Assembly: GCA_002705565.1 (NCBI GenBank)
Contig: PAHJ01000101.1
Span: 1 to 60,686 of the forward strand
DNA from: Geminicoccus sp.
GTDB taxonomy: Bacteria; Pseudomonadota; Alphaproteobacteria; UBA7985
DNA length: 60,686 nucleotides
Direction of reading: 5' to 3'
Shown here: positions 2,472 to 54,543 of the stretch, in pieces
Layout: every line of letters starts with the position of its first letter
How positions within the stretch are numbered: the first letter of the stretch is position 1
Position numbers and translations under genes: made by a program
The notes under the pieces: model-generated
Databases searched by the model: none
Told to the model about the DNA's origin: nothing
The model's input: only the letters and a program-made list of their open reading frames with translations

Positions 2472-3632
2472 TTATGGATGCGGTCGGTCCCAGCGGATGT
2501 CCCACGTGGTGGCGGCTTCAAGGCTGCACTTATGCCGCCGGGCGGTGCGTACCAGCTCGCCAAAGGCACGCGCCTGACTCCACAGCGACAGAGCATCATC
2601 TGGCCAGGCGCTGAGACTATGCAGTCGATGCAGTCGAACCAAGGCAGGCAAGCCGCCGACAAGCGCCGTCGCCAGCCGCTCTCCCATCAACTGCTTCGGG
2701 GGGGCCCGAAACCTGGTTTCCTGTCCCGATGAAACCGCCTCGACAAGCCCCTGTGCGACGGGGAAGAAATGCAGGCCGCTGGTGCTGCGCGGGTTGCATT
2801 CGAGCACTTTAAACTGCCCCGAAGCGTCTGAGCGAAAGTCGAAGGATAGCTGCCCCCGGCCCGGCATCGCCCGGGCAACGGCTGCAACGAAAGGCTCAAT
2901 CGCGCGATGGGCGGCCTCGTCGGCGGCCTCAAAGGCAACACCTGCGCCGGTGCCTGTGCCCCTGCGCAATCGCACGATGGGACGGTAGGCTTGCAGGGCC
3001 AGCACGCGACCCTGCTCGACCAATGCTGAACAGCACAGCTCTTCCCCTTTGGCGTAAGCCTGAGCGATCCAGGGTCTGTCTGGTGACGGTGTGATCCGCG
3101 CGCGCTGGTCGGCGGTGGGGCGGACCATTGTATCGGTGCCAAAGCGCGAGAAACAGGGCTTGAACACCCAGTCCTGACCCGGCACACGCTCCACCTGATC
3201 GGCGCTTTCCAACCGGTAATATGCAGGCGCAAAAGCCGGCGCGATCTCGGTTACATGGGCGTTGAAACGAGCTTTGTCATGCAGGGTTATCAGCGCATCG
3301 AGCGACGGTGCGTAGAGCATGTCGCGCCACTGGTGGCCGTTGGGGGATGTTTGTGCGGCATGGGCAAGATGAAACACCTCCTCACAGGTGGGCAGGATCA
3401 GGCCGACATGGTGAGCATCTACGATCTCTGCGATCCGCCGGGCAAAGGCTACAGGCTCTTCCCTGGGCGATGGCAGTGGCTCGAAGCTCTTTTTCTTGCG
3501 GCTGAAACGAGCCAGCGGGGCCTTCAGGCTGTCAGCCAGAACCACAGACCAACCTGCTGCATCAAACAGCCGGCACCAATGAAGCGCGACCGGAGCTCTT
3601 GCGCCGGTGATCAGAACCGACGGTTGGGTCAT
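2472..3632 (-). CDS. ATP-grasp domain protein, last gene of the ketosynthase cluster
   Basis: A 386-residue ATP-grasp enzyme, a family that makes an acyl-phosphate from a carboxylate and couples it to an amine or other nucleophile. Visible are a Rossmann-like N-terminal segment (SVLITGARAPVALHWCRLF), the ATP-binding lysine segment VFKPCFSRFGTDTMV, the WIAQAYAKGEEL strand and the Mg-binding C-terminal signature LECNPRSTSGLHFF. It overlaps the upstream adenylating enzyme by 4 bases (ATGA), which places it in the same transcript as the ketosynthase III gene. Together they suggest that an acyl or hydroxyacyl product is activated and joined to an amino acid or amine. The substrate is unknown, and carbamoyl-phosphate-synthase-like annotation would be only superficial. 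Confidence 0.8.
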   Translation of the reverse strand: MTQPSVLITGARAPVALHWCRLFDAAGWSVVLADSLKAPLARFSRKKKSFEPLPSPREEPVAFARRIAEIVDAHHVGLILPTCEEVFHLAHAAQTSPNGHQWRDMLYAPSLDALITLHDKARFNAHVTEIAPAFAPAYYRLESADQVERVPGQDWVFKPCFSRFGTDTMVRPTADQRARITPSPDRPWIAQAYAKGEELCCSALVEQGRVLALQAYRPIVRLRRGTGTGAGVAFEAADEAAHRAIEPFVAAVARAMPGRGQLSFDFRSDASGQFKVLECNPRSTSGLHFFPVAQGLVEAVSSGQETRFRAPPKQLMGERLATALVGGLPALVRLHRLHSLSAWPDDALSLWSQARAFGELVRTARRHKCSLEAATTWDIRWDRPHP

Positions 3633-4864
3633 GTTCGCAGTCTCTCAACCCGGCGAAGCTTGCGTTCGAAGAGGTCCGAGCGGCTGATCGTTTCCAGCGT
3701 GATAGACGGGCTCAGGCTGCGGCGTTGGAAAGCGGCCTGGAGGCTTTGCATGGCCCGGTGCCGGGTCTCCTCGCGCAGGTCGGCAGGCAAGCGCAGAATA
3801 ATGGTACCATCGACCCTCTGCTGAACACGAAAATCATCAATCTCGGGGTGCGCATCCAAAACCGCGTTGCGGAGAATGTCAGGCGTCACCATCACTGTAT
3901 CGAACCAGAACACGTCATCTTGTCGCCCCACGACCTCGCGCACCACCTGCAAGGGAGAACCGCATGGACACGGTTCGTCTTCCAGATGCAGCAAATCGTT
4001 CATCCGATAGCCGGCCATCAACTGGTATCGGCGCGAGAAGTCGGTGATGATGGGCGTGGCCAGCAGGTTGCTGACCCAGTCGAAGTCAAACTTCACAAAC
4101 TCCTCGGCTAAGTGCAGCGAGCCACGGTTGCATGACACGCCCAAAAGCCCTTCTGTCGCCATATAGATCCGACCCAAGTGCAGACCAAAAGCGTCCTCAA
4201 TGATGGTACGATCCGGCGCCTCCAGCGTTTCTGCAGCGGCATAGAGGCGGGTTGGTGATATTCGCTGACGGTCCGCGTTCTCCGCCAACCAGCGCAGAAT
4301 TTTCGGCGGTGCCACGATGGTTGTTGGATCGAAATCAGTCAGATCATCCGCCCACTGTTCCGGGCCATCCCGCAGGTCATAGAACTGAACCCGCAACCAG
4401 CCCGATTGGTTGCCTGCCTGATACAGCGCTGAGTTTTGCGGCAGGATTACTGCCACGCGTTGCGGCGTTCGCCACACCTCCGGCAGTGCTTTGGCCAGAA
4501 TCACCCCGAGCCACTGATAGCGTTCCTCATCGGTGATCACGTAAAGGCCCCGATTGCCGGACGTACCACTTGAGATACCGCAGGCTACGTCCTCGTGGAC
4601 ATAACCGGTTTCCAGCCCATGCCGGACGTCGTCCGCGGAAAGCCGTTCTTGGTTATAGGCGGCGAAGTCAGCCATCAGATCGGCCTTGTTCATCCGCAGC
4701 GTGTCGGGGTCGTGGTGGGGAAAGCTCTCGATAACATGCTGCCGCCATTGTCCCATCTGCCGTTCCTGATGAGCCAGTAGTGCGGGTCGGGTGCGCAGGC
4801 GCAGGGCCAGCCACCGCGCTCGCACAAAGGCACGAAACACGCGCTGACGGGCGCTAAAGGACAT
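3629..4864 (-). CDS. F390 synthetase-like adenylate-forming enzyme
   Basis: A 411-residue protein of the PaaK / coenzyme-F390-synthetase branch of adenylate-forming enzymes, resembling the group often labelled putative adenylate-forming enzyme. The P-loop-like motif GISSGTSGNRGLYV is clear, followed by the family's MATEGLLGVSC segment and a C-terminal region with a CPCG cysteine pair (DEPCPCGSPLQVV). The start at 4864 (MSFSARQRV) is preferred because it gives an 11-base overlap with the hydrolase gene upstream. A start at 4888 is also possible; the much longer frame back to 5125 only runs antisense-like through the neighbour and is rejected. It presumably activates a carboxylic acid as an acyl-AMP for this cluster's pathway. 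The substrate cannot be told from sequence. Confidence 0.8.
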   Translation of the reverse strand: MSFSARQRVFRAFVRARWLALRLRTRPALLAHQERQMGQWRQHVIESFPHHDPDTLRMNKADLMADFAAYNQERLSADDVRHGLETGYVHEDVACGISSGTSGNRGLYVITDEERYQWLGVILAKALPEVWRTPQRVAVILPQNSALYQAGNQSGWLRVQFYDLRDGPEQWADDLTDFDPTTIVAPPKILRWLAENADRQRISPTRLYAAAETLEAPDRTIIEDAFGLHLGRIYMATEGLLGVSCNRGSLHLAEEFVKFDFDWVSNLLATPIITDFSRRYQLMAGYRMNDLLHLEDEPCPCGSPLQVVREVVGRQDDVFWFDTVMVTPDILRNAVLDAHPEIDDFRVQQRVDGTIILRLPADLREETRHRAMQSLQAAFQRRSLSPSITLETISRSDLFERKLRRVERLRT

Positions 4865-5660
4865 CAAAGGCGCTGGCCTCCGGCTCATGGCACAGAACAA
4901 CCGTCCCGCCCGCTTGCTCGAACCCACGCAGTCGGCGAAGGGCGGCTTCGGCGGCGTTGACATCGCTTGCAATGCGCCGAGGTAGCCCCACGAGCGGCTG
5001 ATCCGAATGCAGGGCTTGAAGCACCCAGTGCGCATCCACGGCGTAGAGCGCATTCGCCGCGTGCAGATACAGCCCAAAGTGCCCCACCGCGTGCCCTTCA
5101 AGCGGCACCACAGACAAGACCCCATCGATCAATGCTCGTCCCGCGCCCAGGCCATGAGGCAAATCGATGGTGGGTAAATCCTCGATGGCATCCAGTCGGG
5201 ACGCGTAATCATCGGGCAGCAGCTCCAGAAACGAGCCGTGCAGCAATGGCCCCCGCCAGCCTGACCGGCCAACGGCCTCAAAAGCATCGCGCGACCCGAC
5301 GAATCGCGCCTGCGTGAAGCTGCGCAGTTCGCTGATGTGGTCGGCGTGAAGATGGCTGACAATAATCGTTTGCACGTCCTCGGGCTTCAGGCCCTTGTCT
5401 GCGAGAACCTGCGAAACTTGCCCCTGAGGCAGCAATTCTGCGCGGAAAATCAGGGTATAGAGCCAGAGCCCAAAGGTCCGTTTGGCGGTTCGACCAAAGC
5501 AACGAGGACCATAGCCGCTGTCCACGAGGGTCACCCCCAACTGCGGATGCTCGAACAGACCATAGCGAACCCGCAGGGTTTCTCGCGTCCACGGACGGCT
5601 GGGATCAAACAGGCGTCCAGGCGCTTTGATGGTTGCGCTGTTGTACAATTCCAGCCTCAA
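4854..5660 (-). CDS. Metallo-beta-lactamase-fold hydrolase
   Basis: A 268-residue MBL-fold enzyme with the zinc motif HLHADH at residues 103-108, preceded by the VTLVDSGYG strand. Further potential metal ligands lie in the segment EGHAVGHFGLYL and in YAVDAHW. The layout resembles the lactonase/thioesterase-like (AHL-lactonase type) branch. In this operon it could cleave a thioester or lactone made by the ketosynthase product; that is inference. It overlaps the epimerase upstream by 4 bases and the adenylating enzyme downstream by 11 bases, so all these proteins are probably made together. No signal peptide is seen, so it should be cytoplasmic. Confidence 0.85.
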   Translation of the reverse strand: MRLELYNSATIKAPGRLFDPSRPWTRETLRVRYGLFEHPQLGVTLVDSGYGPRCFGRTAKRTFGLWLYTLIFRAELLPQGQVSQVLADKGLKPEDVQTIIVSHLHADHISELRSFTQARFVGSRDAFEAVGRSGWRGPLLHGSFLELLPDDYASRLDAIEDLPTIDLPHGLGAGRALIDGVLSVVPLEGHAVGHFGLYLHAANALYAVDAHWVLQALHSDQPLVGLPRRIASDVNAAEAALRRLRGFEQAGGTVVLCHEPEASAFDVL

Positions 5661-6613
5661 AATCGATCCTTTGCAACGCGAAGCACGCCTTCGATCCCCT
5701 CATCCAATGGCACCTGAGCGATCCAACCAAGGTCCTCCGCAGCGCGTTGGGTGTTTAGGGTGAGAGAATAGCCAAAAATGCCTACGCTGTAGCGTGTAAA
5801 GCGCGGCTCTCCCGCCAATCTAAATCCACGATAAGTCACCTCTAGCAACTGTGCCGCGCCCAGCACCAGCGGCAGCGGCACCGAACGCCAGCGCAGAGGC
5901 AGGTTCTGCGCTTTGGCGATGCGCTCCACCAACTCTGTCAGGCGAAGCGGCTCCGGACCTGCAATGTTATAGATGCCATCGGAACCCGGCACGTTGAGTG
6001 ACTGCAGCACCGCACGGCAGACGTCATCAACATGAGTGATGTTGGTCACAGCCCGGCCACCGCGCAGCTTAGGCAACGGTCCCGCCTCTATCGCGCGCTG
6101 CAAGCGGGGCAATAGCGCCGTATCGCCGGGACCGTAAATGGCACGTGGGCGAAGGATGGTACTGGGGAGCGGCGACGCCTGAACCAGCGCCTCCGCCTTG
6201 GCCTTGGTTTCGGCATAGAGGTTGATTGGCCAAGAAGAAACCGCTTGCTCGTGCAGGTCGATTTGGTCCTTGAAGTCGAAATAGAGGGCGGGTGTTGAGA
6301 TATGGACAATCTGCTCGACCCCAGTCCGCTCCGCCCAATGCAGCAGGTTCTCTGTCGCCAACACGTTGTCGCGCTCAAACGCGGCGCGCGGTCCCCAGGG
6401 GGCCGATCGGGCGGCGCAGTGGACGACGGCATCGACGCTTGGCACGGCGGCGAGCGTATCAGAGCTGGCGAGATCGGCAGGAATGAAGGGAAACCCCTCT
6501 GGCGCAGCTTCAGCCCGACGGCCGGTCGCAATGGGCGAAAGGCCATTTTCGGCCAAAACCCGCATGCAGCGCGCCCCAAGAAACCCCGTCGCACCTGTCA
6601 CCAGAACCCGCAT
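5657..6613 (-). CDS. NAD(P)-dependent epimerase/dehydratase-family reductase
   Basis: A 318-residue extended short-chain dehydrogenase with the nucleotide-binding GATGFLG at residues 7-13 and the catalytic YAETK at 133-137, with ILRPRAIYGPGD downstream. The size and layout resemble the 3-beta-hydroxysteroid-dehydrogenase-like group, which also includes OleD-type 2-alkyl-3-ketoacid reductases. Because it lies between a ketosynthase III and an acyl-activating enzyme, reduction of a beta-keto acyl product is the likeliest role (inference). It overlaps the ketosynthase gene by 1 base and the hydrolase gene by 4. Confidence 0.85.
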   Translation of the reverse strand: MRVLVTGATGFLGARCMRVLAENGLSPIATGRRAEAAPEGFPFIPADLASSDTLAAVPSVDAVVHCAARSAPWGPRAAFERDNVLATENLLHWAERTGVEQIVHISTPALYFDFKDQIDLHEQAVSSWPINLYAETKAKAEALVQASPLPSTILRPRAIYGPGDTALLPRLQRAIEAGPLPKLRGGRAVTNITHVDDVCRAVLQSLNVPGSDGIYNIAGPEPLRLTELVERIAKAQNLPLRWRSVPLPLVLGAAQLLEVTYRGFRLAGEPRFTRYSVGIFGYSLTLNTQRAAEDLGWIAQVPLDEGIEGVLRVAKDRF

Positions 6614-7626
6614 TACGCCACCAGCGCCGCGGCACCGAACTGCACCCCCGCTGAGGTGCCTAGCATCAGAACCCGCGCGCCGGGCTGGATCATGCCTCGG
6701 AGCTGTGCCTCTGAGAAGGCCGTGGGGATCGACGCGGCGATCTGGTTTCCGTGACTGCGGGTGATGTCGATATAGCGGTTGGAGCGCACCTGAAACGCTC
6801 GGGCCATATGCATCAAGCCCAAGGGGCTCGCCTGGTGCGGTACAAACAGATCAACGTCCCCCCGGCTCCAGCCCACCCGGTCAAGAAAACGGTCCAAGAA
6901 GTCGGAAAACTGGCTGCGGACCAACTTGAACAAACTGTCGCCGGTCATCTGGAAGTAAGCCTGTTCGAGGAAGTGGCCAGCGTTGTCATGGGGCGAATTG
7001 CGCGTGCCGCCGACAGGCAACTGACAGGCCTCATAGGCAGAGGGGAAGCTCTCAAAGGCGGTTCCCACCAACCCGCGTCCCGGGACCATTTCAACAACCC
7101 ACGCGCCCGCACCGTCGCCAAACAGGCCCGCAACCTCAGGGGCTGCGTGCCACGGAAGCGCGCAAGAAGCCAACTCGCTGCTGACGATCAGCACACGCCG
7201 CGCGCGGCCGCTTTCGAGATAACTCGCTGCGATTTCCAGCGCAGACAGCGCGCTCAGGCAGGTGGTGTTAACATCCAGCACCTGACAGCCACCATCGGGC
7301 AGGCCAAGGCCTTGCTGATAGAGCGGTGCGGTACTGGGAATGAGTTGTTGAGGCACCGCCGAGGCGGCGATGATCAGGTCGAGACTGCTTGCCGAGCAGT
7401 CCGCCCGTTCAAGCGCCACTCGCGCTGCCCGCAAACCCAGCGCCACCTGCGTCTCTGCCCCCAAGCGGTCCGCGATGTACCGTGTTTTGACGCCCGTTGC
7501 AGCGACGAGCGACCCGGCCTTTAAGCGGTGGATCTGTTCCAGCTGCTCTGAGGCCACCTTCGCCCGAGGCAAGGCATGCCCCCACCCGGTTATAGCAGCA
7601 GCCGATTGGTCAAAACTGGCACTCAC
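6613..7626 (-). CDS. 3-oxoacyl-ACP synthase III family protein (ketosynthase)
   Basis: A 337-residue thiolase-fold KASIII-like enzyme with the full catalytic triad: Cys123 (NTTCLSAL), His264 (FVPHQAS) and Asn294 (SHGNQIAASIP). The GDGAGAWVVE segment is also typical. FabH of fatty-acid synthesis condenses acetyl-CoA with malonyl-ACP, but this copy is first in a five-gene set that contains no fatty-acid-synthesis genes. A specialised head-to-head or decarboxylative condensation, as in OleA or secondary metabolism, is therefore more plausible. It starts 131 bases from a divergent acyltransferase gene, which suggests a shared regulatory region. Confidence 0.88.
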   Translation of the reverse strand: MSASFDQSAAAITGWGHALPRAKVASEQLEQIHRLKAGSLVAATGVKTRYIADRLGAETQVALGLRAARVALERADCSASSLDLIIAASAVPQQLIPSTAPLYQQGLGLPDGGCQVLDVNTTCLSALSALEIAASYLESGRARRVLIVSSELASCALPWHAAPEVAGLFGDGAGAWVVEMVPGRGLVGTAFESFPSAYEACQLPVGGTRNSPHDNAGHFLEQAYFQMTGDSLFKLVRSQFSDFLDRFLDRVGWSRGDVDLFVPHQASPLGLMHMARAFQVRSNRYIDITRSHGNQIAASIPTAFSEAQLRGMIQPGARVLMLGTSAGVQFGAAALVA

Positions 7627-7757
7627 GTTTTGCTCCCTTGGAAAAACACGTAAGACACGAGAGGATACATCAAAAGGTGGCCATTGTGACGAAACTTGTC
7701 AATGTCTATTTATGGAATTAAGGTGGTTTCTGTGGATGAATTAGGCCGATTGACACG
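7627..7757. promoter_or_regulatory. Divergent promoter region of the ketosynthase cluster
   Basis: This 131-base AT-richer spacer lies between the ketosynthase III gene (leftward) and the acyltransferase gene (rightward), so it must carry promoters in both directions. I see no clear palindromic operator and no regulator gene beside it. The ATG at 7758 has no obvious ribosome binding site. Confidence 0.5.
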
Positions 7758-8834
7758 ATGAATCAGGCAGCCGAGAACCTAGCCTCCTTGGTCACTGATC
7801 AGGGCGCTTCGGCCCTGGTGCGCAATCTGGAAACGGAGATGCACACCCGGCGCGTTGGGCCGTGGATGGTTCCTGCCAGCCTCAATTCGGGACAGGCGAA
7901 GACGTGCTATATCAACTGCCCCAGCCGCGCCTTCATCGATTACGGAGCCGAGGAGCTCGATCGCCTCACCTCCAACCCGGCTGCGCGTCTGGGCGGTCGA
8001 GCGGTGCTGCGCGGGCTGGCACCCCTGGTTCGGGCAACGGGGCTGGATCGGCAGGTACAGTTAAACAACTGGCTGGTTGCGACCAACATTTTACCCCCCG
8101 CCACCAGCGACGACTGGCTAACAGCTTTGGAGACTGCCGGCGCTGACCACCCGGGCTTTATTCCGGTTGTGCGCTCGGTCAACCGGGCCATGCACCAGCG
8201 ATTGCTGGACGACCTCATCGGCGCGGATCTGACGCCATTTCCTATGCGCAAAGTCTTCATTCGGGACTATGCCCGCGAGCGGCGCTGGACCACCGATGAG
8301 CAGCGCGACGCGCGCTTGCTGGCGCGGGATGATCTGGAACAGCGCAGTGGCACGACCTTTAGCGCTGAGGAATTTGACCGCGCAGCAAATCTTTATGGCC
8401 AGCTCTATCTGGACAAATACTCCACCCTCAACCCGCAGTATTCCGGCCTGTTTCTCCGGTTGGCGCAGGCGTGTCTGGGATTAACGCTGGTGGGGTTGTT
8501 TGATCGTGAAAAGGGCATGGTTGGTGTCATAGGGCGGTATGAACAGCACGACGTTCTGACGGGACCGATCGTTGGCTATGACAGGACTTTGCCGCGTGCA
8601 ACGGGTCTCTATCGGCGTCTTCGTGCCATAAATCATGCAGCCGCTCGCAACGGCCACCGGCTCTATCACATGAGCGCCGGGGCTGAAGGGTTCAAACGCT
8701 TGCGCGGTGGGCGAGCGACCGTTGAATACATGATTGCGGATTTCCGGCACGCATCGCAGGCGCAGCGGCGGGCGGCCCGGATTTTGTCATCACTGACCCA
8801 GCGTGCCGCCCGTCGCCTGCTGACGGACAGCTAA
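7758..8834 (+). CDS. GNAT/FemAB-like acyltransferase, divergent from the ketosynthase cluster
   Basis: A 358-residue protein whose C-terminal half looks like a GNAT-fold acyltransferase of the FemAB/BioF2-like sort. It has a KYSTLNPQYSGLF segment, a GVIGRYEQHDVLTGPIVGYDR core, and LYHMSAGAEGFKRLRGG near the C-terminus. The N-terminal half is less recognisable. It is encoded divergently from the five-gene cluster and is probably part of the same pathway, acylating the product or transferring the acyl chain made by the ketosynthase. It could instead be unrelated to that cluster; family assignment is by pattern only. Confidence 0.55.
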   Translation: MNQAAENLASLVTDQGASALVRNLETEMHTRRVGPWMVPASLNSGQAKTCYINCPSRAFIDYGAEELDRLTSNPAARLGGRAVLRGLAPLVRATGLDRQVQLNNWLVATNILPPATSDDWLTALETAGADHPGFIPVVRSVNRAMHQRLLDDLIGADLTPFPMRKVFIRDYARERRWTTDEQRDARLLARDDLEQRSGTTFSAEEFDRAANLYGQLYLDKYSTLNPQYSGLFLRLAQACLGLTLVGLFDREKGMVGVIGRYEQHDVLTGPIVGYDRTLPRATGLYRRLRAINHAAARNGHRLYHMSAGAEGFKRLRGGRATVEYMIADFRHASQAQRRAARILSSLTQRAARRLLTDS

Positions 8835-8852: not shown

Positions 8853-9560
8853 TCAGACCGACTGCGTCAGCCCCCCGTCCACACGTAAATTCTGACCGGT
8901 GATGTAGCTCGATGCATCGGTTGCCAGAAAGGCGATCGTTTCGGAAAGCTCTCGAACACGCGCGTATCGTCCTGCGGGGATCCGGGCAAGCCGGTCTTCC
9001 TTTTCTGGCAAAGAGTCGATGAAACCGGGCAGGACATTGTTCATCCGTACGCCCTTGGCCGCGTACTGGTCGGCGAACAGCTTGTTATAGCCCGCCAGGC
9101 CGGCACGGAATACGGCTGAGGTCGGAAAATCCGGGTCGGGCTCGAACGCGGCAAAGGTTGAGACATTGACGATGGCCCCCTTCCCCTGCGCCGCCATAAT
9201 GGGCGTAACAAGACGCGTCATACGTGCAACGTTGAGGAAGTAATAATCCATTCCCAGGTGCCAGTCCTCATCGCTAATCGACAGCAGATCACCCTTGGGG
9301 CCGTGTCCAGCGCAGTTGATCACCGCATCAATCCGGCCAAAGCGCGCCATCGTGGCTTCAACGAAGGCCTGAAGGTCACCGACAACAAGGTTTGAACCGG
9401 TGAAGCCAAGCCCACCCAATTCCTTGCCCAGCGCCTCGCCCTTGCCACTGGACGACATAACAGCGACCGCATGACCAATTTCGTTCATCTTGCGAGCAGC
9501 ATCCGCACCAATGCCGCTGCCACCCCCAATAATCATTGCGACGGGTTGAGTACTAGCCAT
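8853..9560 (-). CDS. Short-chain dehydrogenase/reductase (SDR)
   Basis: A 235-residue classical SDR. The cofactor-binding glycine motif is GGGSGIGADAARKM near the N-terminus and the NAG-type segment is VINCAGHGPKG. The usual catalytic YxxxK appears as YNKLF, so the Tyr and Lys are present, but the Ser position is replaced or displaced (VNVSTFAAF). The C-terminus LRVDGGLTQSV is typical of the family. Its ATG overlaps the stop of the FAD oxidoreductase by 1 base (TAATG), so the two are cotranscribed. The substrate is unknown; by context it may reduce or oxidise an intermediate of the FAD enzyme's substrate. Confidence 0.85.
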   Translation of the reverse strand: MASTQPVAMIIGGGSGIGADAARKMNEIGHAVAVMSSSGKGEALGKELGGLGFTGSNLVVGDLQAFVEATMARFGRIDAVINCAGHGPKGDLLSISDEDWHLGMDYYFLNVARMTRLVTPIMAAQGKGAIVNVSTFAAFEPDPDFPTSAVFRAGLAGYNKLFADQYAAKGVRMNNVLPGFIDSLPEKEDRLARIPAGRYARVRELSETIAFLATDASSYITGQNLRVDGGLTQSV

Positions 9561-10783
9561 TAGATTACTGCCTTTTCAAAGAAGGGACGACCGGCTTCAA
9601 TGCGCTCGTAGCCAAAGGGTGAGAGGTCCAGCGAGCGGTATTCACCGTAGACCACAAGTTCAGAGATCCCGCGCCCCATGGCCGGAGATTGCTGGAAGCC
9701 GTGGCCGGAAAAGCCGTTGGAAAAGATGAAGTTCGCCACCTGTGTATGCGGCCCGATGATGGCGTTCTGATCCAGCGTGTTAAAGGCGTAATGCCCGGCC
9801 CATGAATTGATCAGCTTGATCTGCTCAAACTGCGGAATCCGGTTGGCGATCACGGGCCACACCTTCTCTTCCCAAATGCTGTGATCCTGTACGAAATCAT
9901 CGTAATCCACCGCCGGGTCCTCATCCGGGGGACAACCGGCGAGATAGTATTGCCCTTCGGTGCGCATGTGCACGCCCGTAGGATCGATGGTCAGCGGTAA
10001 GTCACGGTCCAGCGGGTGAGCGGCATCAAAAATAAAGGTGTAACGCTTGCGGGGTTCGACGGGGATCTCGATTCCCGCCATACGCGAAGTCCGCACAGCT
10101 CGAGGGCCGGAGGCGTTGATGACGGTACCACAGGCAACGACTTCGCCGGTTGACAGCGTCACGGACTCAACCGCCGTTCCTGCGGCGTTCAACGTCATCG
10201 CAACCACTTCGTTGGTGCAATACTCCGCCCCCTGTTCCCGCGCCGACCGCTTCCACCAGTCAAACAGCGTGGCGCCGTCGAAATAGCCTTCGTCCACCAG
10301 ATTATGGTTGGCGGCGATGATGTCTTCGAGGTTGTAGAAGGGATAAGCGTCGGCGATTTCAGTGCGGCTCATGTGCTTCGTACCTGCGCCAAGCTCGGCT
10401 TGCAGCCTCTGACTTTCCGCAAGGACATCAGCGAAGGCCTGATTATCCGCGAGGTACATGTAGCCAAAGTTCTGAATGCGGGGCTGGGGCACGCGGTCGT
10501 CGTCTGCCCCCATATAGCTCCGGAAATTCTTCACAAACTCCGCACCAAATTGCGAAATCCGCACGTTGATCTCGTTGGTGAACTGCTGACGAATGCAAGA
10601 GTTAGTGTGCGAGGTCGATGTCCACTCATAGGTGGGATCCCGCTCCAATACGAGAATGGAGCCATCGAAGTCAGGATTGCTCTGCGTGAACCAGGCAATG
10701 GACGATCCGTACATCGCACCGCCAACGATCACAACGTCATACGACGACTGCGCTGGTGCTTGAAACTTGCTCACTTCAACCAT
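9560..10783 (-). CDS. FAD-dependent oxidoreductase (DAO/sarcosine-oxidase-like)
   Basis: A 407-residue D-amino-acid-oxidase-superfamily flavoprotein. The dinucleotide-binding motif is VVIVGGAMYGSS (residues 17-28) with the acidic end of beta-2 at LVLERD. The C-terminal FAD segment is FIFSNGFSGHGFQQSPAMG. Such enzymes oxidise secondary or primary amines (sarcosine, dimethylglycine, FOXRED1-like). A GGAGG-type ribosome binding site lies just upstream of the ATG. It is followed immediately by the SDR and sits at the downstream edge of the hpa genes, so oxidation or N-demethylation of an amine that yields a phenylacetate precursor is possible, as inference only. Confidence 0.8.
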   Translation of the reverse strand: MVEVSKFQAPAQSSYDVVIVGGAMYGSSIAWFTQSNPDFDGSILVLERDPTYEWTSTSHTNSCIRQQFTNEINVRISQFGAEFVKNFRSYMGADDDRVPQPRIQNFGYMYLADNQAFADVLAESQRLQAELGAGTKHMSRTEIADAYPFYNLEDIIAANHNLVDEGYFDGATLFDWWKRSAREQGAEYCTNEVVAMTLNAAGTAVESVTLSTGEVVACGTVINASGPRAVRTSRMAGIEIPVEPRKRYTFIFDAAHPLDRDLPLTIDPTGVHMRTEGQYYLAGCPPDEDPAVDYDDFVQDHSIWEEKVWPVIANRIPQFEQIKLINSWAGHYAFNTLDQNAIIGPHTQVANFIFSNGFSGHGFQQSPAMGRGISELVVYGEYRSLDLSPFGYERIEAGRPFFEKAVI

Positions 10784-10937
10784 GGTTTTCCTCCTCGATT
10801 CTTGAACGTGCCTGCACCGGTGCGGATGCGGGTAAAGGTATGGTTAGAACTGTACCCTAACGCTGCTTCGGATTAGCATTCAAAGAGTCCATCCCATCGA
10901 TCAAGGTTTTTGTTGATCCGCTGAAGAGGCACTCTCC
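10784..10937. promoter_or_regulatory. Divergent promoter region, FAD oxidoreductase / PaiB-like
   Basis: This 154-base spacer separates the leftward FAD-oxidoreductase gene from the rightward PaiB-like gene. It has no coding signal and no strong palindrome that I can see. It should contain promoters for both directions. Confidence 0.45.
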
Positions 10938-11567
10938 ATGCATCCGAACCCTGCTTTCCGTCAGGAGCCCCAAGAAAGACACCTCGATTTTGCGGCGCAA
11001 ACCGGCTTTGGCATGCTCTGCGCAACCCCGGCCCCGGATCAAGCACCCCTGCTTGCGCACGTGCCGTTCTTGCTGTCCTCGGATCGCCTGAGTGCTGAGT
11101 TACACCTCGTGCGCGCTAACCCAATCGTCAAAATCAAGACGGATCCGCTGCCCGCTGTTATCGCGATCCAGAGCCCCCACGCCTACATCTCCCCCGACTG
11201 GTACGAAACCGAGCAGCAGGTGCCGACGTGGAACTATGTGGCGGTGCATCTTCGCGGCGCTTTGATCCGGTTGGAGCAGGGCGAAATCCGGAGGGTGGTG
11301 GATGAACTTTCCGACCACTTTGAAAGCCGAATTGCTGGAAAAACCCCTTGGAGCAGCGCGAAACTTCAGGCCGAGGCACTTGAACGCATGCTGATCCAGG
11401 TCGTCCCTTATCGCTTTGAGATCGAAGAGGTGAATGGAACGTGGAAGTTGAACCAGAACAAGCCGGAAGACGCCCGTATGGGCGCGGCGGAGCGGGTTTC
11501 AGGCTCAACAATTGGGCAAGAAACCGCAGCACTCGCCGCGCTAATGCAGGACGATCGACGCGGTTAA
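10938..11567 (+). CDS. PaiB-like FMN-binding split-barrel protein
   Basis: The 209-residue product matches the PaiB family of FMN-binding proteins, annotated as negative transcriptional regulators after Bacillus PaiB. Typical segments are the N-terminal MHPNPAF, HVPFLL, SPHAYISPDWY, VPTWNYVAVHL and the C-terminal WKLNQNK motif. It has no helix-turn-helix, so a role as flavin-binding enzyme or redox partner is as plausible as regulation. It is encoded on the opposite strand between the FAD oxidoreductase and hpaB, and its stop overlaps the hpaB stop (convergent, 4 bases). No hpaC flavin reductase is present in the window, so its position next to hpaB is notable. Confidence 0.85.
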   Translation: MHPNPAFRQEPQERHLDFAAQTGFGMLCATPAPDQAPLLAHVPFLLSSDRLSAELHLVRANPIVKIKTDPLPAVIAIQSPHAYISPDWYETEQQVPTWNYVAVHLRGALIRLEQGEIRRVVDELSDHFESRIAGKTPWSSAKLQAEALERMLIQVVPYRFEIEEVNGTWKLNQNKPEDARMGAAERVSGSTIGQETAALAALMQDDRRG

Positions 11568-13051
11568 GCGCCGATCATTGCGTTGACACGCTCGATCAGT
11601 GGGTCGCTGTCGTAAAGGTCAAAATAGCCCGCATTCATGATCGCAGGCGGGCCAAAGAAGAACCGCTCATACAGCGCCTGCCGGTTGCCAAAACCACTCA
11701 CGCAAACATCGTGTGCCAGCCGGAACAGCGCGACCCGGTCGCGCGCTTCAAGATTGGCGACCTGGAAGTACCGACGCACATCCTCTGACATTTCGTTGCT
11801 GAAATCAGCCTCAGTCGGTGTCGCCATCAGGGAGCTGGAGCCCAGCAGTTGCAGGATCTCGACCATGCGCGGGTACATCTTAGGGAACAGGTTGCGCGAA
11901 GTATCGATCGGGCGGCGCAGCGGTGCGAAGTTACCCCATTCATCCTCATACGCCTGCTCCTCAGCCGAGAACAGCAGTGCACGCACGGTCTCGGTCATCA
12001 TCATGACTTCAGCGATCTGGGTTTTGGTGTGCAGATCCTTATCCCGGCCCGTCGCACGCGCCATCGCCATCATCAGCCCCACCATGAACTCAGCCTTGGC
12101 GAGCTTTCCGCAGGCAACCTGGTGCATCATGTGCGTGACCGCATTAGTCCGGGCAAAGGCCTGGTTGCACAACAGCGGCTCCCGGTACATGAACAGCCGC
12201 TCCCACGGCACCAGCACGTTGTCGAAGATCACAACCGCGTCCATCTCCTCGAACCGCGAAGACAGCGGCGCGTCGAAGTGGCTCTTGCCGTGGTCATAAG
12301 TATCACGCGCGAGCAGTTTCAGACCCGGTGTGGCGATTGGAATGGCAAAGGCAAAAGCGAAGGGGATGTTGTCTTCCGAACCGCGCAGCAGCGTAGAAGG
12401 GAACACCTCGATCTCATCAGCGATAGGACCGAGTGTGGCCAACAGGCGCGCGCCCTTAACCACAATCCCGGCATCGGTTTCCTTGACCACGTGCAGGGCG
12501 ACTTCGTCGTCGTACTTGCCTTCAACGGCAACCGCATGTGACTTCTGCGGATTGACGAGCGTGTGGGTCAGGACCAGATCGTTTTTCCGCGCGTAGTTGT
12601 AGTAATTGATCATGTTGGCGGAGAAATCAGCATTGCCCTGCCCACGTTCCACGCCCTGGTCCAGCCACTGGGCGGCAGAGGCAAAGGACATAAGCGAGGC
12701 GTTCTTATAGTCTGGCGTGCGGCCAAACATGCCATGCGACCAGGTGGCCCATTCGTAGTAGGCCTTTCCGCGTGCCTTCACGTCTTCCTTGCTCGTTGGC
12801 TTCATGAACGACATGCCGCAACGGTCACCGTCTTCGTCCGTGTAGGTCAGCGTATCTTCAAGCTCCGGCTCAGACTGGCGATCGAGAAAACCACCAAGCG
12901 TTGCTGCACCCCGACGGGTCGCGGCGTGCTTGGTTACGTCTTTGATGCGTTCACCGCCGGTCCAGACTTCACGGTCATCCTGCAAGCCGGCGAGGTACTC
13001 GGCGCCGGAGCGAATACCGCGTCCGGCGCGGCCATCGGTTGATTTAAGCAT
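11564..13051 (-). CDS. hpaB: 4-hydroxyphenylacetate 3-monooxygenase, oxygenase component (HpaB-like)
   Basis: A 495-residue protein of the HpaB flavin-dependent monooxygenase family, which ortho-hydroxylates 4-hydroxyphenylacetate to homoprotocatechuate using reduced flavin supplied by HpaC. Family features include RSGAEYLAGL, YYEWATWSHGMFGRTPDY, LTHTLVNPQKS, a DNVLVPWERLF strand and the C-terminal FRLAHDVCVSGFGNRQ segment. The start at 13051 is chosen because it has a strong GGAGG ribosome binding site (13061-13066) and overlaps the upstream MarR gene by 8 bases; the longer frame back to 13237 is rejected. It lies at the end of the hpa gene set. No hpaC partner is seen, so the reductase must be elsewhere or a different flavoprotein. 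Confidence 0.85.
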   Translation of the reverse strand: MLKSTDGRAGRGIRSGAEYLAGLQDDREVWTGGERIKDVTKHAATRRGAATLGGFLDRQSEPELEDTLTYTDEDGDRCGMSFMKPTSKEDVKARGKAYYEWATWSHGMFGRTPDYKNASLMSFASAAQWLDQGVERGQGNADFSANMINYYNYARKNDLVLTHTLVNPQKSHAVAVEGKYDDEVALHVVKETDAGIVVKGARLLATLGPIADEIEVFPSTLLRGSEDNIPFAFAFAIPIATPGLKLLARDTYDHGKSHFDAPLSSRFEEMDAVVIFDNVLVPWERLFMYREPLLCNQAFARTNAVTHMMHQVACGKLAKAEFMVGLMMAMARATGRDKDLHTKTQIAEVMMMTETVRALLFSAEEQAYEDEWGNFAPLRRPIDTSRNLFPKMYPRMVEILQLLGSSSLMATPTEADFSNEMSEDVRRYFQVANLEARDRVALFRLAHDVCVSGFGNRQALYERFFFGPPAIMNAGYFDLYDSDPLIERVNAMIGA

Positions 13052-13532
13052 GAGATTTTTCCTCCTGTGTTTCGGCTGGCGTGCCGAAAGCTGGTCCGTC
13101 TTCGAACTGGCGGAGCAAGTGGGATAGCGTTTGCCAGTCCTGCTCGCTGACGCAGTTGCGGACAGCTTGATGAATATCCTGCAAGCGCGGCGCAATCTGA
13201 CGCTCCAGCTTGCGGCCTTCGGGTGTTGGTTTGGCAAAAACGATGCGGCGATCTTCGACCGATCGCAGCCGCACGATCAGGCCCTTCTTCTCCAGTCGGT
13301 CGAGCACGCCAACCAAGCTGGCTGCCGGCAGGAGCGTGCGACGGGCCAATTCGATGCTGGACAGGCCGTCGTCCTCCCAAAGCGTGCGAAGAACCCGCCA
13401 CTGCTGCTCTGTCAGCCCGTACTCAGAAAACAGCGCGCGATAATGCGGCATCACTCCATCGAGCACGCGGTACAACATCATCGGCAGACTGGCATCAAAC
13501 GGCGCTGTGTCATTGCGGTTGTAATCATTCAT
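13044..13532 (-). CDS. MarR-family transcriptional regulator (second MarR)
   Basis: A 162-residue winged-helix regulator. The MarR core is clear: LTEQQWRVLRTLWEDDGLSSIELARR, the recognition region LLPAASLVGVLDRLEKKGLIVR, and the wing with DRRIVFAKPTPEG. It overlaps hpaB by 8 bases and starts 49 bases after the kinase gene, so it probably controls hpaB and perhaps the upstream genes. A 26-base near-palindrome covers its own start codon (13521-13546), consistent with autorepression. There is no clear ribosome binding site, so leaderless translation is possible. It differs from the HpaR-like MarR at the other end of the island. Confidence 0.88.
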   Translation of the reverse strand: MNDYNRNDTAPFDASLPMMLYRVLDGVMPHYRALFSEYGLTEQQWRVLRTLWEDDGLSSIELARRTLLPAASLVGVLDRLEKKGLIVRLRSVEDRRIVFAKPTPEGRKLERQIAPRLQDIHQAVRNCVSEQDWQTLSHLLRQFEDGPAFGTPAETQEEKSHA

Positions 13533-31933: not shown

Positions 31934-34900
31934 ATGAGCATCGATTCGACCCCACCGTTTATTCATTTGCGCGTCAAATCCGCCTATTCGTTGGCTGAAG
32001 GCGCCATACGGGTAAACGACCTCGTCAAGCTTTCTGCCGGGCTGGACATGCCTGCTGTGGCCCTGACCGACCGCGGCAACCTGTTCGGTGCGCTGGAATT
32101 TGCGGTGACGGCGTCCAAAGCGGGCCTACAACCGGTCATCGGGGCTGTTTTGGGTATCGTGCGCGGGAAGGATCAGCATGGCGCGGAGCGAGCTGACCCC
32201 GATCATCTGCTGCTGCTTGCGCAGGATCAAACCGGCTACGAAAACCTCATGAGTCTGATCTCTGAAGGGTATTTGAAAGGCGATGGAGCCGACCCGGCGG
32301 TGCCTTTTGAGGCCCTAAAGGGACGCAGCGATGGATTGATCGCTTTGGACGGCGCCAAGGGGTCTCCGCTCGGACGACACTTGCTGGACGGTTCGAGCCT
32401 GATCGAAACCCACATTCAGGCCATGAAAGGCCTGTTCAACGGTCGGCTCTATCTGGAAATTCAACGCCATGGTCAGAGCCATGAACGCGCGCTGGAGGCG
32501 AGGCTTCTGCCTGCCGCACAGGCCCACAACCTACCGCTGGTCGCCACCAACGACGCCCACTTCGCTGCCGCAGATCAATTCGATGCCCACGACGTCCTCT
32601 CTTGCATCGCTCAAGGCGTTACCCTCGCCCACCGCGACCGCCGCCGCCTGACCCCGGAGCACTTCTTCAAGACCAGTCAGGACATGGCGCGCCTGTTTGC
32701 TGATTTGCCCGAAGCGATCGACAATACTTGGCGCATTGCCCAGCGCTGCGCCGTTATGCCCCGCCTGCACGACCCCATCCTGCCCGCCTATGACGATGGC
32801 TCGGGTGAGAATGAAGGCCAGATGCTGGCGCGCATGGCGGCAGAGGGTTTGCAAGAACGCCTGAACGCCCTCGAACCCAGCCCCGACACCGCGCTACAGC
32901 AGACCTACCGCGACCGCCTGGATTTCGAGCTCAACGTCATCGAGCAAATGGGCTTTCCCGGCTACTTCCTGATCGTTGCTGACTTCATTCAATGGGCCAA
33001 GGAACAAGGCATTCCCGTGGGTCCAGGCCGGGGCTCCGGTGCTGGGTCGCTGGTGGCGTATTCCCTGACCATCACTGACCTCGACCCCATCCCCTTCAAC
33101 CTCCTGTTCGAGCGCTTTCTAAACCCTGAGCGTGTCTCAATGCCGGATTTCGATATCGATTTCTGCCAGGATCGTCGCGATGAGGTGATCGCCTACGTGC
33201 GTGACAAGTACGGTTCGGACCGGGTCGCGCAGATCATCACCTTTGGCAAGCTGCAAGCACGCGCGGTCGTGCGTGACGTGGGACGGGTGTTGGGCATTCC
33301 CTATGGCCAAACCGACCGAATTTCCAAGCTGATCCCGAACAATCCCGCCAACCCGACCAGCTTGGGTGAAGCCATCGACGGGGATGAGCAGTTGCAGAAA
33401 ATGCGACGCACAGAGGAATCGGTCGCCAAGCTGTTTGACGTTGGGCTGCAACTCGAAGGCCTGTACCGCAACGCCTCGACCCATGCCGCTGGCGTCGTCA
33501 TCGGCGACCGCGATCTGACCAAGCTGGTCCCGCTCTATAAAGACCCACGCTCAGAGATGCCCGCGACACAATTCAACATGAAGTGGGTCGAGCCAGCGGG
33601 TCTGGTGAAGTTTGACTTTCTGGGTCTGAAAACCCTAACCGTGATCGCAGAAGCCGAGCGCCTGATTCGGCGCTTTAAGCCCGACTTTGACATCACCCGT
33701 ATCCCGCTCGACGATACGCCAGTTTTTGAGATGCTCAGCCGGGCGGAGTCCGTTGGTATCTTCCAGCTGGAATCCACGGGCATGCGGGACGTCCTGCGCA
33801 AGCTGCGGCCTGACAGGTTCGAAGACATCATCGCTGTTGTCGCGCTGTATCGTCCCGGCCCGATGGAAAACATTCCAACCTATATTTCACGGAAACACGG
33901 TGAGGACAGAGTGGTGTATCTGCACCCGCTGCTCGAACCCATCGTGCAGGAAACCTACGGCATCATGATCTATCAGGAGCAGGTCATGCAGGCGGCCCAA
34001 GCGCTCGCCGGGTATAGCCTGGGCGGCGCAGATCTTTTGCGCCGGGCCATGGGTAAAAAGCTCAAGGCAGAGATGGACAAGCAGAAGGCGCTGTTCGTCG
34101 AAGGTGCGGCCAAGAACGCGATTTCCGAGAAAAAAGCGCTGGAGATCTTCACGCAGATCGAGGCCTTTGCCGGTTACGGATTCAACAAATCTCACGCTGC
34201 CGCCTATGCGCTGGTCTCCTACCAAACCGCCTATCTAAAAGCCCACTTCCCCGAAGAATTCCTTTGCGCCTCGATGATCCTCGACGCGGGCAACACCGAC
34301 AAGCTGGCGATTTTCAAAGGGGATCTGGAGCGTATGGGCGTGCCCCTGCTGCCCCCAGACATCAACGCCTCACAAGCGACCTTTGATGTCGAAATTGACG
34401 TTGAGAGCGGCAAAAAAGCAGTTCGCTACGCGCTCAATGCCATCAAAAACGTCGGGGGCTCGGCTATGGATAACCTGGTCGCGAGCCGGGCCAGCGGCGG
34501 AGCGTTCAAGAACCTCGAAGACTTCGCCACCCGGGTTGATACCCGCGCTGCGGGCAAGCGGATTTTAGAGAACCTGATCGCAGCCGGAGCCTTCGACACC
34601 ATCGACCCCAACCGCGGACAGTTGTTCATCAACGTGGAACGCCTCAACCGCTTTGGTATCGCGGTGACCGAGGAGCGGAATTCGTCACAGTCCTCGCTTT
34701 TTGGCGGGGCAGGCAACGACAGCGGCAGCAATGGGGCCGTGACCTTGCAGATGCTGACGGCGGACGATTGGCCATTGCAGGAAAAACTCTCGCGCGAGTT
34801 CGACGCCATTGGCTTTTATCTGACGGCACACCCGGTGGACGCCTACGCCGACGCCCTGGCTAAACTACGGGTTCAGACCATCGGCGATCTGCTCAAGAAT

Positions 34901-35398
34901 GGCATCAACGGCGGACGGGCCAAGCTGGCCGGCGTCGTATCGTCAAAGAACGAACGCCGCTCCGCCAACGGCAACCGCTTCGCCTGGATCAGCATCTCAG
35001 ATCCTACGGGAACGGTTGAATTTGTCTGCTTTTCTGAAATGCTCATGGCCAATCGGGAACATCTTGAGGTGGGAACGACCATCTACGTCGAATGCGACAG
35101 GGGCAAGGGCGCTGAAGCCGGCGACTTGCGGCTATCAGCGGCTAAGATCGAGCAACTGGACGCCATGGTTGCTAACGGGTCGGTGGGCCTGAAGCTATTT
35201 TTGTCCGCACCTGACAGCCTGTCTCCGGTCTCTGAACTGATCGAAGGCTGCACAGGGGGGAATGACCGCGTGCATATCGTCATCGAACTGGACGAAGACC
35301 GCGAGGCGGAGGTCGTGTTGGAAAAGCGCTACCGTCTGACCGGTCCCGTGCGCGCGGCGATCAAATCGGTTCCCGGCGTTGAAGCGGTGGATTTTTAG
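31934..35398 (+). CDS. dnaE: DNA polymerase III alpha subunit
   Basis: A 1154-residue replicative polymerase of the DnaE1 type. In order: an N-terminal PHP domain (HLRVKSAYSLAEGA), the palm with catalytic aspartates in PDFDIDF (about residues 403-409), the fingers and beta-clamp-interacting regions, a helix-hairpin-helix region around GGSAMDNL, and an OB fold near residues 1000-1050 (AKLAGVVSSKNERRSANG). The second His of the PHP HxH-type start is Lys, so PHP exonuclease activity is probably lost, as in E. coli. It is close to the 1160 residues of E. coli DnaE and appears intact. It ends 7 bases before the converging VIT gene. Confidence 0.95.
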   Translation: MSIDSTPPFIHLRVKSAYSLAEGAIRVNDLVKLSAGLDMPAVALTDRGNLFGALEFAVTASKAGLQPVIGAVLGIVRGKDQHGAERADPDHLLLLAQDQTGYENLMSLISEGYLKGDGADPAVPFEALKGRSDGLIALDGAKGSPLGRHLLDGSSLIETHIQAMKGLFNGRLYLEIQRHGQSHERALEARLLPAAQAHNLPLVATNDAHFAAADQFDAHDVLSCIAQGVTLAHRDRRRLTPEHFFKTSQDMARLFADLPEAIDNTWRIAQRCAVMPRLHDPILPAYDDGSGENEGQMLARMAAEGLQERLNALEPSPDTALQQTYRDRLDFELNVIEQMGFPGYFLIVADFIQWAKEQGIPVGPGRGSGAGSLVAYSLTITDLDPIPFNLLFERFLNPERVSMPDFDIDFCQDRRDEVIAYVRDKYGSDRVAQIITFGKLQARAVVRDVGRVLGIPYGQTDRISKLIPNNPANPTSLGEAIDGDEQLQKMRRTEESVAKLFDVGLQLEGLYRNASTHAAGVVIGDRDLTKLVPLYKDPRSEMPATQFNMKWVEPAGLVKFDFLGLKTLTVIAEAERLIRRFKPDFDITRIPLDDTPVFEMLSRAESVGIFQLESTGMRDVLRKLRPDRFEDIIAVVALYRPGPMENIPTYISRKHGEDRVVYLHPLLEPIVQETYGIMIYQEQVMQAAQALAGYSLGGADLLRRAMGKKLKAEMDKQKALFVEGAAKNAISEKKALEIFTQIEAFAGYGFNKSHAAAYALVSYQTAYLKAHFPEEFLCASMILDAGNTDKLAIFKGDLERMGVPLLPPDINASQATFDVEIDVESGKKAVRYALNAIKNVGGSAMDNLVASRASGGAFKNLEDFATRVDTRAAGKRILENLIAAGAFDTIDPNRGQLFINVERLNRFGIAVTEERNSSQSSLFGGAGNDSGSNGAVTLQMLTADDWPLQEKLSREFDAIGFYLTAHPVDAYADALAKLRVQTIGDLLKNGINGGRAKLAGVVSSKNERRSANGNRFAWISISDPTGTVEFVCFSEMLMANREHLEVGTTIYVECDRGKGAEAGDLRLSAAKIEQLDAMVANGSVGLKLFLSAPDSLSPVSELIEGCTGGNDRVHIVIELDEDREAEVVLEKRYRLTGPVRAAIKSVPGVEAVDF

Positions 35399-54256: not shown

Positions 54257-54543
54257 GGCAAGTTCTCCTCCCGCCGCTTTGTTGTGGAGTGCTCCTCCAA
54301 GCGTTTGAAGCGGAACTTAGGCGTTTGCTTTGAGCCGTGCAACGCAAGACCCAGAATCAAGGACAATTTGATTGCCTTCAGGTATGGCAATAGCCTGCTT
54401 CTCCTCCCAAGCAGCAGAGTTTTGCTCCATCGCGTCCGGGAAACTGGACAGATTCGCCCTGTTTGCGCCTCAATTCGAGAACAAACTCTCGTTCATTACC
54501 TTTTCTTCATTTTCTGACCCCTTTTGTTCATGGAGCCTTTCAC
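54257..54543. promoter_or_regulatory. Divergent intergenic region between the acyl-CoA ligase and alpha-2-macroglobulin genes
   Basis: This 287-base gap separates the leftward ligase and the rightward alpha-2-macroglobulin gene. I see no further gene or strong palindrome. Both promoters should lie here, with a GGAG ribosome binding site about 8 bases before the ATG at 54544. Confidence 0.4.

Follow-up and report, generated by a model that had tools for sequence, protein, structure and literature searches.

A conserved four-gene acyl-metabolite cassette with exchangeable candidate head-group modules in Geminicoccus sp. and other bacteria

The 60,686-nt contig PAHJ01000101.1 of Geminicoccus sp. 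(assembly GCA_002705565.1), which is the window analyzed here and whose coordinates are given on the forward strand, carries on its minus strand a run of five overlapping genes for a ketosynthase III, a reductase, a hydrolase, an adenylase and an ATP-grasp enzyme. A sixth gene, for a transferase, runs in the opposite direction. In a first-pass annotation these genes had been regarded as a candidate uncharacterised acyl-metabolite pathway. We found that the first four form a widely conserved core, and we propose, with about even confidence, that this core would build a two-chain acyl scaffold to which the products of the remaining genes would attach a head group.

Gene layout of the cassette

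The run starts with a 337-aa ketosynthase III (KS; positions 7626-6613, minus strand; PF08541/PF08545) of a MxnB/CorB-like clade, which has a GTG start codon with GGGAG upstream. It is followed on the same strand by an extended short-chain dehydrogenase/reductase (SDR; 6613-5657, 318 aa; PF01370) resembling OleD and 3-beta-hydroxysteroid dehydrogenase (3-beta-HSD), and by a hydrolase of the metallo-beta-lactamase (MBL) fold (5660-4854, 268 aa; PF00753; TTG start codon) resembling N-acylhomoserine lactonase and pyridoxolactonase. The fourth core gene encodes an F390 synthetase-related, PaaK-type adenylate-forming enzyme (4864-3629, 411 aa; TIGR02304). Homologues favor its start near 4864, and the longer open reading frame to 5125 would run into the MBL gene. 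The last gene of the run, a putative head-group module, encodes an ATP-grasp ligase distantly related to MysC (3632-2472, 386 aa; PRK06849). Successive genes overlap by 1, 4, 11, and 4 bases, and from these junctions we infer that all five are co-translated. On the plus strand lies the divergent module gene, for a 358-aa tandem-GNAT transferase with a FemX/MprF fold (7758-8834; PF13480 below its cut-off, fold from an AlphaFold2 model). The 131 bases between this gene and the KS gene (7627-7757) are presumed to be a control region, and the same divergent KS/GNAT layout is repeated in the relatives L063-L065.

The coordinates, the overlaps and the divergent acyltransferase of the first-pass annotation were all confirmed on the sequence. 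The motifs it had listed (C123/H264/N294 of the KS, HLHADH of the hydrolase, YAETK of the reductase, SSGTSG of the adenylase, and ECNPR of the ATP-grasp enzyme) are all there, and relatives keep them with little or no variation. Its remark that no fatty-acid-synthesis genes lie nearby is fair, since the genome's own FabH is encoded on a different contig, although a FabG-like SDR gene ends 18 bases from the acyltransferase gene. The minus-strand stretch beside the cassette (8853-13237) encodes an SDR, a DAO-type flavin adenine dinucleotide oxidoreductase and a HpaB-type hydroxylase.

Distribution of the core and its exchangeable modules

Relatives were collected with the adenylase, for which an 18-sequence alignment was scanned over ∼85,000 species genomes. 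At least 587 relatives turned up, and the 80 best were fetched. A further 15 loci came from plasmids. Gene order was read with profile hidden Markov models over 96 loci. The complete core (KS, SDR, MBL, and adenylase) with enough flanking sequence was found in 84 of the 96 loci, all reached through the adenylase alone. The order KS-SDR-MBL-adenylase was nearly universal among these 84 complete loci; the KS is the last gene in the Fusobacterium and Streptococcus cassettes, and the adenylase is divergently oriented in those of the Caulobacterales and Sphingomonadales. A separate test on genome samples was meant to avoid the bias of picking nearest relatives. Here, adenylase matches of at least 300 bits to the family profile had an MBL and an SDR gene adjacent in 15 of 15 cases (window included), and matches of at most 142 bits had neither in 26 of 26. 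In the reverse test, all 12 plasmid KS matches at E <1e-35 were in cassette-bearing records, where they adjoin the adenylase or, in Pseudomonas sp. Leaf58, lie within ∼10 kb of it. The first-pass annotation had predicted that the genes would co-occur elsewhere, and these three results bear this out. It had also treated the five genes as one fixed set; the core consists of four, and the fifth, encoding the ATP-grasp enzyme, proved to be one of several interchangeable head-group modules.

The core was found in Pseudomonadota, Bacillota, and Fusobacteriota, and the calls for the latter two phyla rest on isolates. Some other phylum labels come from metagenome-assembled genomes with possible binning errors (Flavobacteriaceae, L089; Acidobacteriota, L131; Eremiobacterota, L139). 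Its hosts include Alphaproteobacteria of sea and soil (among them roseobacters and many nitrogen-fixing Mesorhizobium), Paenibacillus, Streptococcus, Fusobacterium, and E. coli. Within the window's genus, each of the five other genomes has the adenylase; in the same order, none of five genomes sampled from other families does. At 1e-40, only 5 of 385 genomes of the class had a match, of which two belong to the window's genus and two others lack cassette neighbors. Because of this patchiness, the distribution suggests horizontal spread. The adenylase patterns found no relative in viral contigs. E. coli carries a seven-gene cassette, read on a plasmid of strain KE48 (L051:7119-14000), in which the core is joined by a PAP2 phosphatase, a fatty-acid hydroxylase and a desaturase. 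Flanked by narI and purU, this cassette occurs in 672 of the 5426 complete E. coli genomes (about one in eight) and is nearly always chromosomal. The arrangement is looser on two megaplasmids: in Pseudomonas sp. Leaf58 (L052) the cassette genes are scattered over ∼13 kb among hypothetical genes, and in P. amygdali (L208:9777-13365) just the adenylase and the ATP-grasp gene were found in the stretch read, again among hypothetical genes.

The genes that flank the core were identified by clustering of flanking open reading frames and by Pfam, and their states were scored over the 84 complete loci. An ATP-grasp gene was present in 58 loci, a family-28-like glycosyltransferase in nine, a DUF3419 protein (which we take to be a BtaA-type aminocarboxypropyl transferase) in seven, a sulfotransferase in three, and a fatty-acid hydroxylase with a desaturase in two, the latter accompanied by the PAP2 phosphatase in E. 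coli; five loci had none of these. The five module types were mutually exclusive, with two of them together in 0 of 84 loci. On the adenylase tree the module state changes at least 16 times, so modules have been swapped repeatedly around a constant core. We conclude, as a point new to this analysis, that the accessory genes behave as interchangeable, putative head-group modules on that core.

The GNAT gene follows the amine-type modules. It was present in 68 loci, 64 with the ATP-grasp gene and four with DUF3419, but in none without either, and an amine module (ATP-grasp or DUF3419) lacked the GNAT in five loci. On two Deinococcus plasmids (L206:8992-11240 and L207:7775-10032) the ATP-grasp and GNAT genes occur as an overlapping bare pair with no core nearby. 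Among independent supported pairs on the tree, GNAT and amine module never change in opposite directions. This pattern fits the view that the GNAT enzyme caps the amine brought in by the ATP-grasp or DUF3419 enzyme. Rieske oxygenases, with 4-beta-methylsterol monooxygenase as best match, are found at 60 of the 84 loci, though at none from the window's genus, and the Rieske proteins of the window's genome are encoded only on contigs other than that of the cassette.

Families of the core and module enzymes

The KS keeps its Cys123/His264/Asn294 triad in 52 of 52 relatives. When compared with the PDB, the KS family profile scored 315 bits for MxnB and 304 for CorB, at most 265 for FabH, 176 for PqsD, and 120 for OleA. 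A maximum likelihood tree of 53 proteins of the β-ketoacyl synthase III (KASIII) type, including FabH of the window's genome and of ∼20 others, joined 21 cassette KS proteins with MxnB and CorB by a branch with support 99/90, as sisters and without nesting of the cassette KS; all of these FabH proteins fell outside this branch. At the positions F87, R151, N247, and S276 of E. coli FabH, the KS family has replacements much like those of MxnB and CorB (Ile/Leu or Val, mostly Pro, Ser, and Ile/Val, respectively). R249 of FabH is lost in the family as well, and in the window KS W32, R36, R151, R249, and N247 are all replaced. The first-pass annotation had staked its idea on a KS that does not cluster with housekeeping FabH, and the tree agrees with this. 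The possibility that the cassette KS is simply the housekeeping FabH was rejected on the basis of its separate clade, the replaced residues for binding of coenzyme A (CoA) and acyl carrier protein (ACP), and a score of 171 bits to the FabH model TIGR00747, against a cut-off of 292. The window's genome also encodes a third, longer KASIII-like protein beside FabH and the cassette KS (L003, G000:C138:1693-4962).

MxnB and CorB are the chain-joining KASIII enzymes of myxopyronin and corallopyronin (PMC5724707, PMC4578411). OleA and PpyS use a catalytic Glu at the FabH F87 position (PMC4578411), and the OleA encoded at locus L160 indeed has Glu there. In OleA this residue is E117, contributed by the partner subunit. 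The window KS has Ile96 at this position, and each of 52 relatives has either Ile or Leu. MxnB is without this Glu too (Val94), for which a nucleophile chain with two carbonyls flanking the reacting carbon has been proposed (PMC4578411). The cassette KS thus resembles known chain-joining enzymes, but not in the mechanism of OleA. This resemblance is an indication of two-chain condensation, short of proof. An AlphaFold2 model of the KS (pLDDT 94.9) matched MxnB with a VIA-align Z score of 44.5, FabH with 43.3, and PqsD with 42.6.

The other core enzymes each retain the residues of their families. The best NCBIfam model for the SDR is OleD, at 158 bits against a cut-off of 580; its G7 and G13 are invariant, and S106, Y133, and K137 are kept in 20 of 20 relatives. 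The profile of the MBL enzyme scored 96 bits for N-acylhomoserine lactonase, 80 for 4-pyridoxolactonase, and ∼31 for PqsE-type thioesterase in the PDB; the window's enzyme itself scores 53.7 bits with the named lactonase model AttM (cut-off 390). Its dimetal ligands H103, H105, D107, H108, H190, D209, and H258 (HxHxDH plus His, Asp, and His) are present in 20 of 20 sequences. The adenylase scores 251.0 bits with TIGR02304 ("F390 synthetase-related"; cut-off 251.9) and has no Pfam match, PF00501 (AMP-binding) included; its profile found phenylacetate-CoA ligase as best match in the PDB. GTSG, TEG, and R314 are kept in 18 of 18 relatives, and so is the C-terminal Lys402 in each of the 17 sequences long enough to include it.

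The window's ATP-grasp enzyme scores 250 bits with PRK06849 (cut-off 406), and K158, E278, N280, and R282 are invariant among relatives. An open reading frame of Nostoc HK-01 (L210:4668-8185) reaches 560 bits with this model and lies beside dehydroquinate-synthase-like and O-methyltransferase genes; by its sequence and its mys-type cluster it is identified as MysC, the mycosporine-glycine synthetase that adds glycine to 4-deoxygadusol (PMC10510106). Among characterised enzymes, MysC is the closest relative of the cassette's ATP-grasp. The window has no dehydroquinate-synthase-like neighbor beside its ATP-grasp gene, and the two proteins share 25% identity over 312 residues. By analogy, a reasonable guess is that the cassette enzyme ligates an amino acid to a keto or acid group. 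Of note, PRK06849 carries the name "hypothetical protein" in NCBIfam and covers the MysC-type mycosporine ligase, so that its name could be improved.

The GNAT protein scores 21.0 bits with PF13480, just under the cut-off of 22, and a sequence search of the PDB gave nothing useful; a weak match to a 12-kDa photosystem protein was taken as chance. In its AlphaFold2 model (pLDDT 95.8) the protein has a tandem GNAT fold, for which the best VIA-align matches were FemX (Z 16.1, root-mean-square deviation 3.7, 267 residues aligned), Sbb17 (15.9), and MprF (14.7). All three enzymes transfer amino acids to peptides or lipids; Sbb17 is an aminoacyl-tRNA-dependent synthase. The donor of the window's GNAT may be either an aminoacyl-tRNA or an acyl thioester.

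Elsewhere in the window, positions 147-2025 encode an ArsR-type regulator fused to an S-adenosylmethionine methyltransferase and overlapping a methylenetetrahydrofolate-reductase-like gene, likely a methionine-cycle pair. The DNA polymerase III alpha subunit (31934-35398) and a large bacterial alpha-2-macroglobulin (54463-59835) are both ordinary.

Proposed pathway, competing explanations, and known systems

The gene set, its conservation, the exclusivity of the modules, the KS clade, and the folds are the observations made here. The substrates, the order of steps, and the product suggested below are read from the enzyme families. The PaaK/F390-type adenylase would adenylate a free acid and pass on the activated acyl group, after which the KS might join two acyl units in a MxnB/CorB-like head-to-head condensation to give a branched beta-keto product. 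The SDR would convert the keto function into an alcohol, unless it carries out an oxidative decarboxylation as related 3-beta-HSD enzymes do, and the MBL enzyme could release the scaffold, as an acid or a hydroxy compound, by opening a lactone or thioester. For the window, two further steps are proposed: ATP-dependent attachment of an amino acid to this scaffold by the MysC-related ATP-grasp enzyme, and then transfer of an acyl or aminoacyl cap onto the resulting amine by the FemX/MprF-fold GNAT. Our best guess for this genome's head group is therefore an amino acid together with one more acyl or aminoacyl unit. The first-pass suggestion of a two-chain condensation, followed by an ATP-grasp enzyme and an acyltransferase acting on an amine, is supported in spirit; the pathway as such is real and conserved, as both the co-occurrence and the KS tree indicate. 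Because the modules include the fatty-acid hydroxylase, desaturase, and PAP2 set, DUF3419, glycosyltransferase, sulfotransferase, and Rieske oxygenase, the product is probably lipid-like. There is a real, if minority, chance that it represents a new class of bacterial lipids with a head-to-head two-chain scaffold, having neither a glycerol nor a sphingoid backbone, and with lineage-specific polar heads. Equally tentative is the idea that these heads would be an amino acid, a homoserine-type ether, a sugar, or a sulfate, swapped as on glycerolipids and sphingolipids.

Several points weigh against the two-chain scaffold with its head groups. Joining of two chains without the Glu needs an activated nucleophile, which in MxnB is a beta-ketoacyl chain, and no gene of the cluster obviously supplies one; no ACP gene was seen with the cassette either. 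The modeled KS fold matches MxnB and FabH almost equally well and so does not separate the two, and a broader published tree puts MxnB and CorB inside a wide FabH clade (PMC4578411). Most loci are alphaproteobacterial, picked as best adenylase matches. The identity between the window's ATP-grasp and the Nostoc enzyme is too low to transfer a substrate, and the test of independent pairs for GNAT and amine module was underpowered (median p 0.125).

The most serious rival, unlikely by our estimate but with a substantial minority of the probability, is a one-chain version. In this scheme, a specialized FabH-type KS would extend an acyl group with malonyl-ACP, the SDR would reduce the 3-keto group, the MBL enzyme would be a thioesterase, and the adenylase would reactivate the 3-hydroxy acid; the same head-group modules would follow, and the outcome would be a 3-hydroxyacyl conjugate, for example a lipoamino acid. 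It would need only the conserved Cys-His-Asn triad and no OleA-type Glu, and it agrees with the closeness to FabH in both fold and profile score. What argues against it is that the KS stands apart from FabH of the same genome and of the ∼20 others and groups with MxnB/CorB, and that the CoA/ACP-binding R151 and R249 and the active-site N247 and S276 of FabH are lost, with R151, N247, and S276 altered as in MxnB/CorB.

An Ole-like route, in which KS, SDR, adenylase, and hydrolase turn two fatty acids into a beta-lactone or alkene, is improbable. The SDR has OleD as its best model, the adenylase could lactonise, and the MBL enzyme is lactonase-like. The KS, however, lacks the Glu and is remote from OleA by profile and tree, the adenylase lies outside the OleC family, and an OleB counterpart is absent, with an MBL fold in place of an alpha/beta-hydrolase. 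Glycosyl-, sulfo-, and amine-installing modules would moreover make no sense on an alkene. The close parallel with the Ole pathway drawn in the first-pass annotation thus shrinks to the SDR, and membership of that pathway was rejected. We give similarly little credence to a route like that of the Pseudomonas quinolone signal (PQS), where the adenylase would take the role of PqsA, the KS that of PqsD, and the MBL enzyme that of the PqsE thioesterase, with tailoring by the SDR; the product would be a small signal molecule, aromatic or alkyl in nature. In its favor, aryl acids are often the substrates of PaaK-type ligases, three enzyme roles are the same, PqsE structures are among the MBL matches, and the KS fold is close to PqsD. 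Nevertheless, the MBL enzyme is far closer to lactonases, the KS profile scores PqsD well below MxnB, and several of the module enzymes are lipid enzymes. A conjectural link to bacterial ceramide synthesis, which involves an N-acyltransferase and an SDR (PMC11087976), was considered because the cassette has a GNAT and an SDR. That pathway would call for an Spt-type enzyme dependent on pyridoxal phosphate together with bCerS and CerR; no enzyme of the Spt type was found inside the cassette, in the window or in relatives. Finally, chance neighbors or a housekeeping fatty-acid operon without joint function are extremely improbable, since nothing beyond the commonness of each protein family favors them, and the gene order conserved across phyla and the all-or-none neighborhoods in the genome samples exclude chance assembly.

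In the open-access literature we found no paper on the cassette, on an F390 synthetase with the cassette partners, or on the E. coli locus. The component families are known; their combination is apparently undescribed there. The core is widespread, yet its adenylase is annotated merely as "F390 synthetase-related" and the model of its ATP-grasp partner as "hypothetical protein". If the logic of the modules is true, a single core product would account for dozens of otherwise puzzling loci, with its head-group enzymes offering a direct way to it by mass spectrometry.

Several known systems come close to parts of the cassette. Its adenylase is at the border of TIGR02304, and annotated relatives lie in the same cassette; this family has no assigned function and is not known to make coenzyme F390. 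The window's GNAT has in its model the tandem fold of FemX and MprF, but neither a useful sequence match in the PDB nor a membrane domain. With MysC, the ATP-grasp enzyme shares the model PRK06849 and perhaps the role of joining an amino acid to a carbonyl or enol core, but it falls well below the cut-off, and its partners are of lipid type rather than mysA and mysB. The Ole pathway has the same roles of KS, OleD-like SDR, adenylase, and hydrolase, and differs in KS clade, Glu, adenylase family, type of hydrolase, and head-group modules. MxnB and CorB have ∼32% identity to the cassette KS, and they act on carrier-bound polyketide chains in large polyketide synthase clusters with alpha-pyrone products, whereas the cassette has SDR, MBL, and adenylase partners instead of a polyketide synthase or ACP. 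They are nonetheless its nearest counterparts in clade, in best profile and structural match, in the replacements at F87, R151, N247, and S276, and in doing without the Glu of OleA and PpyS.

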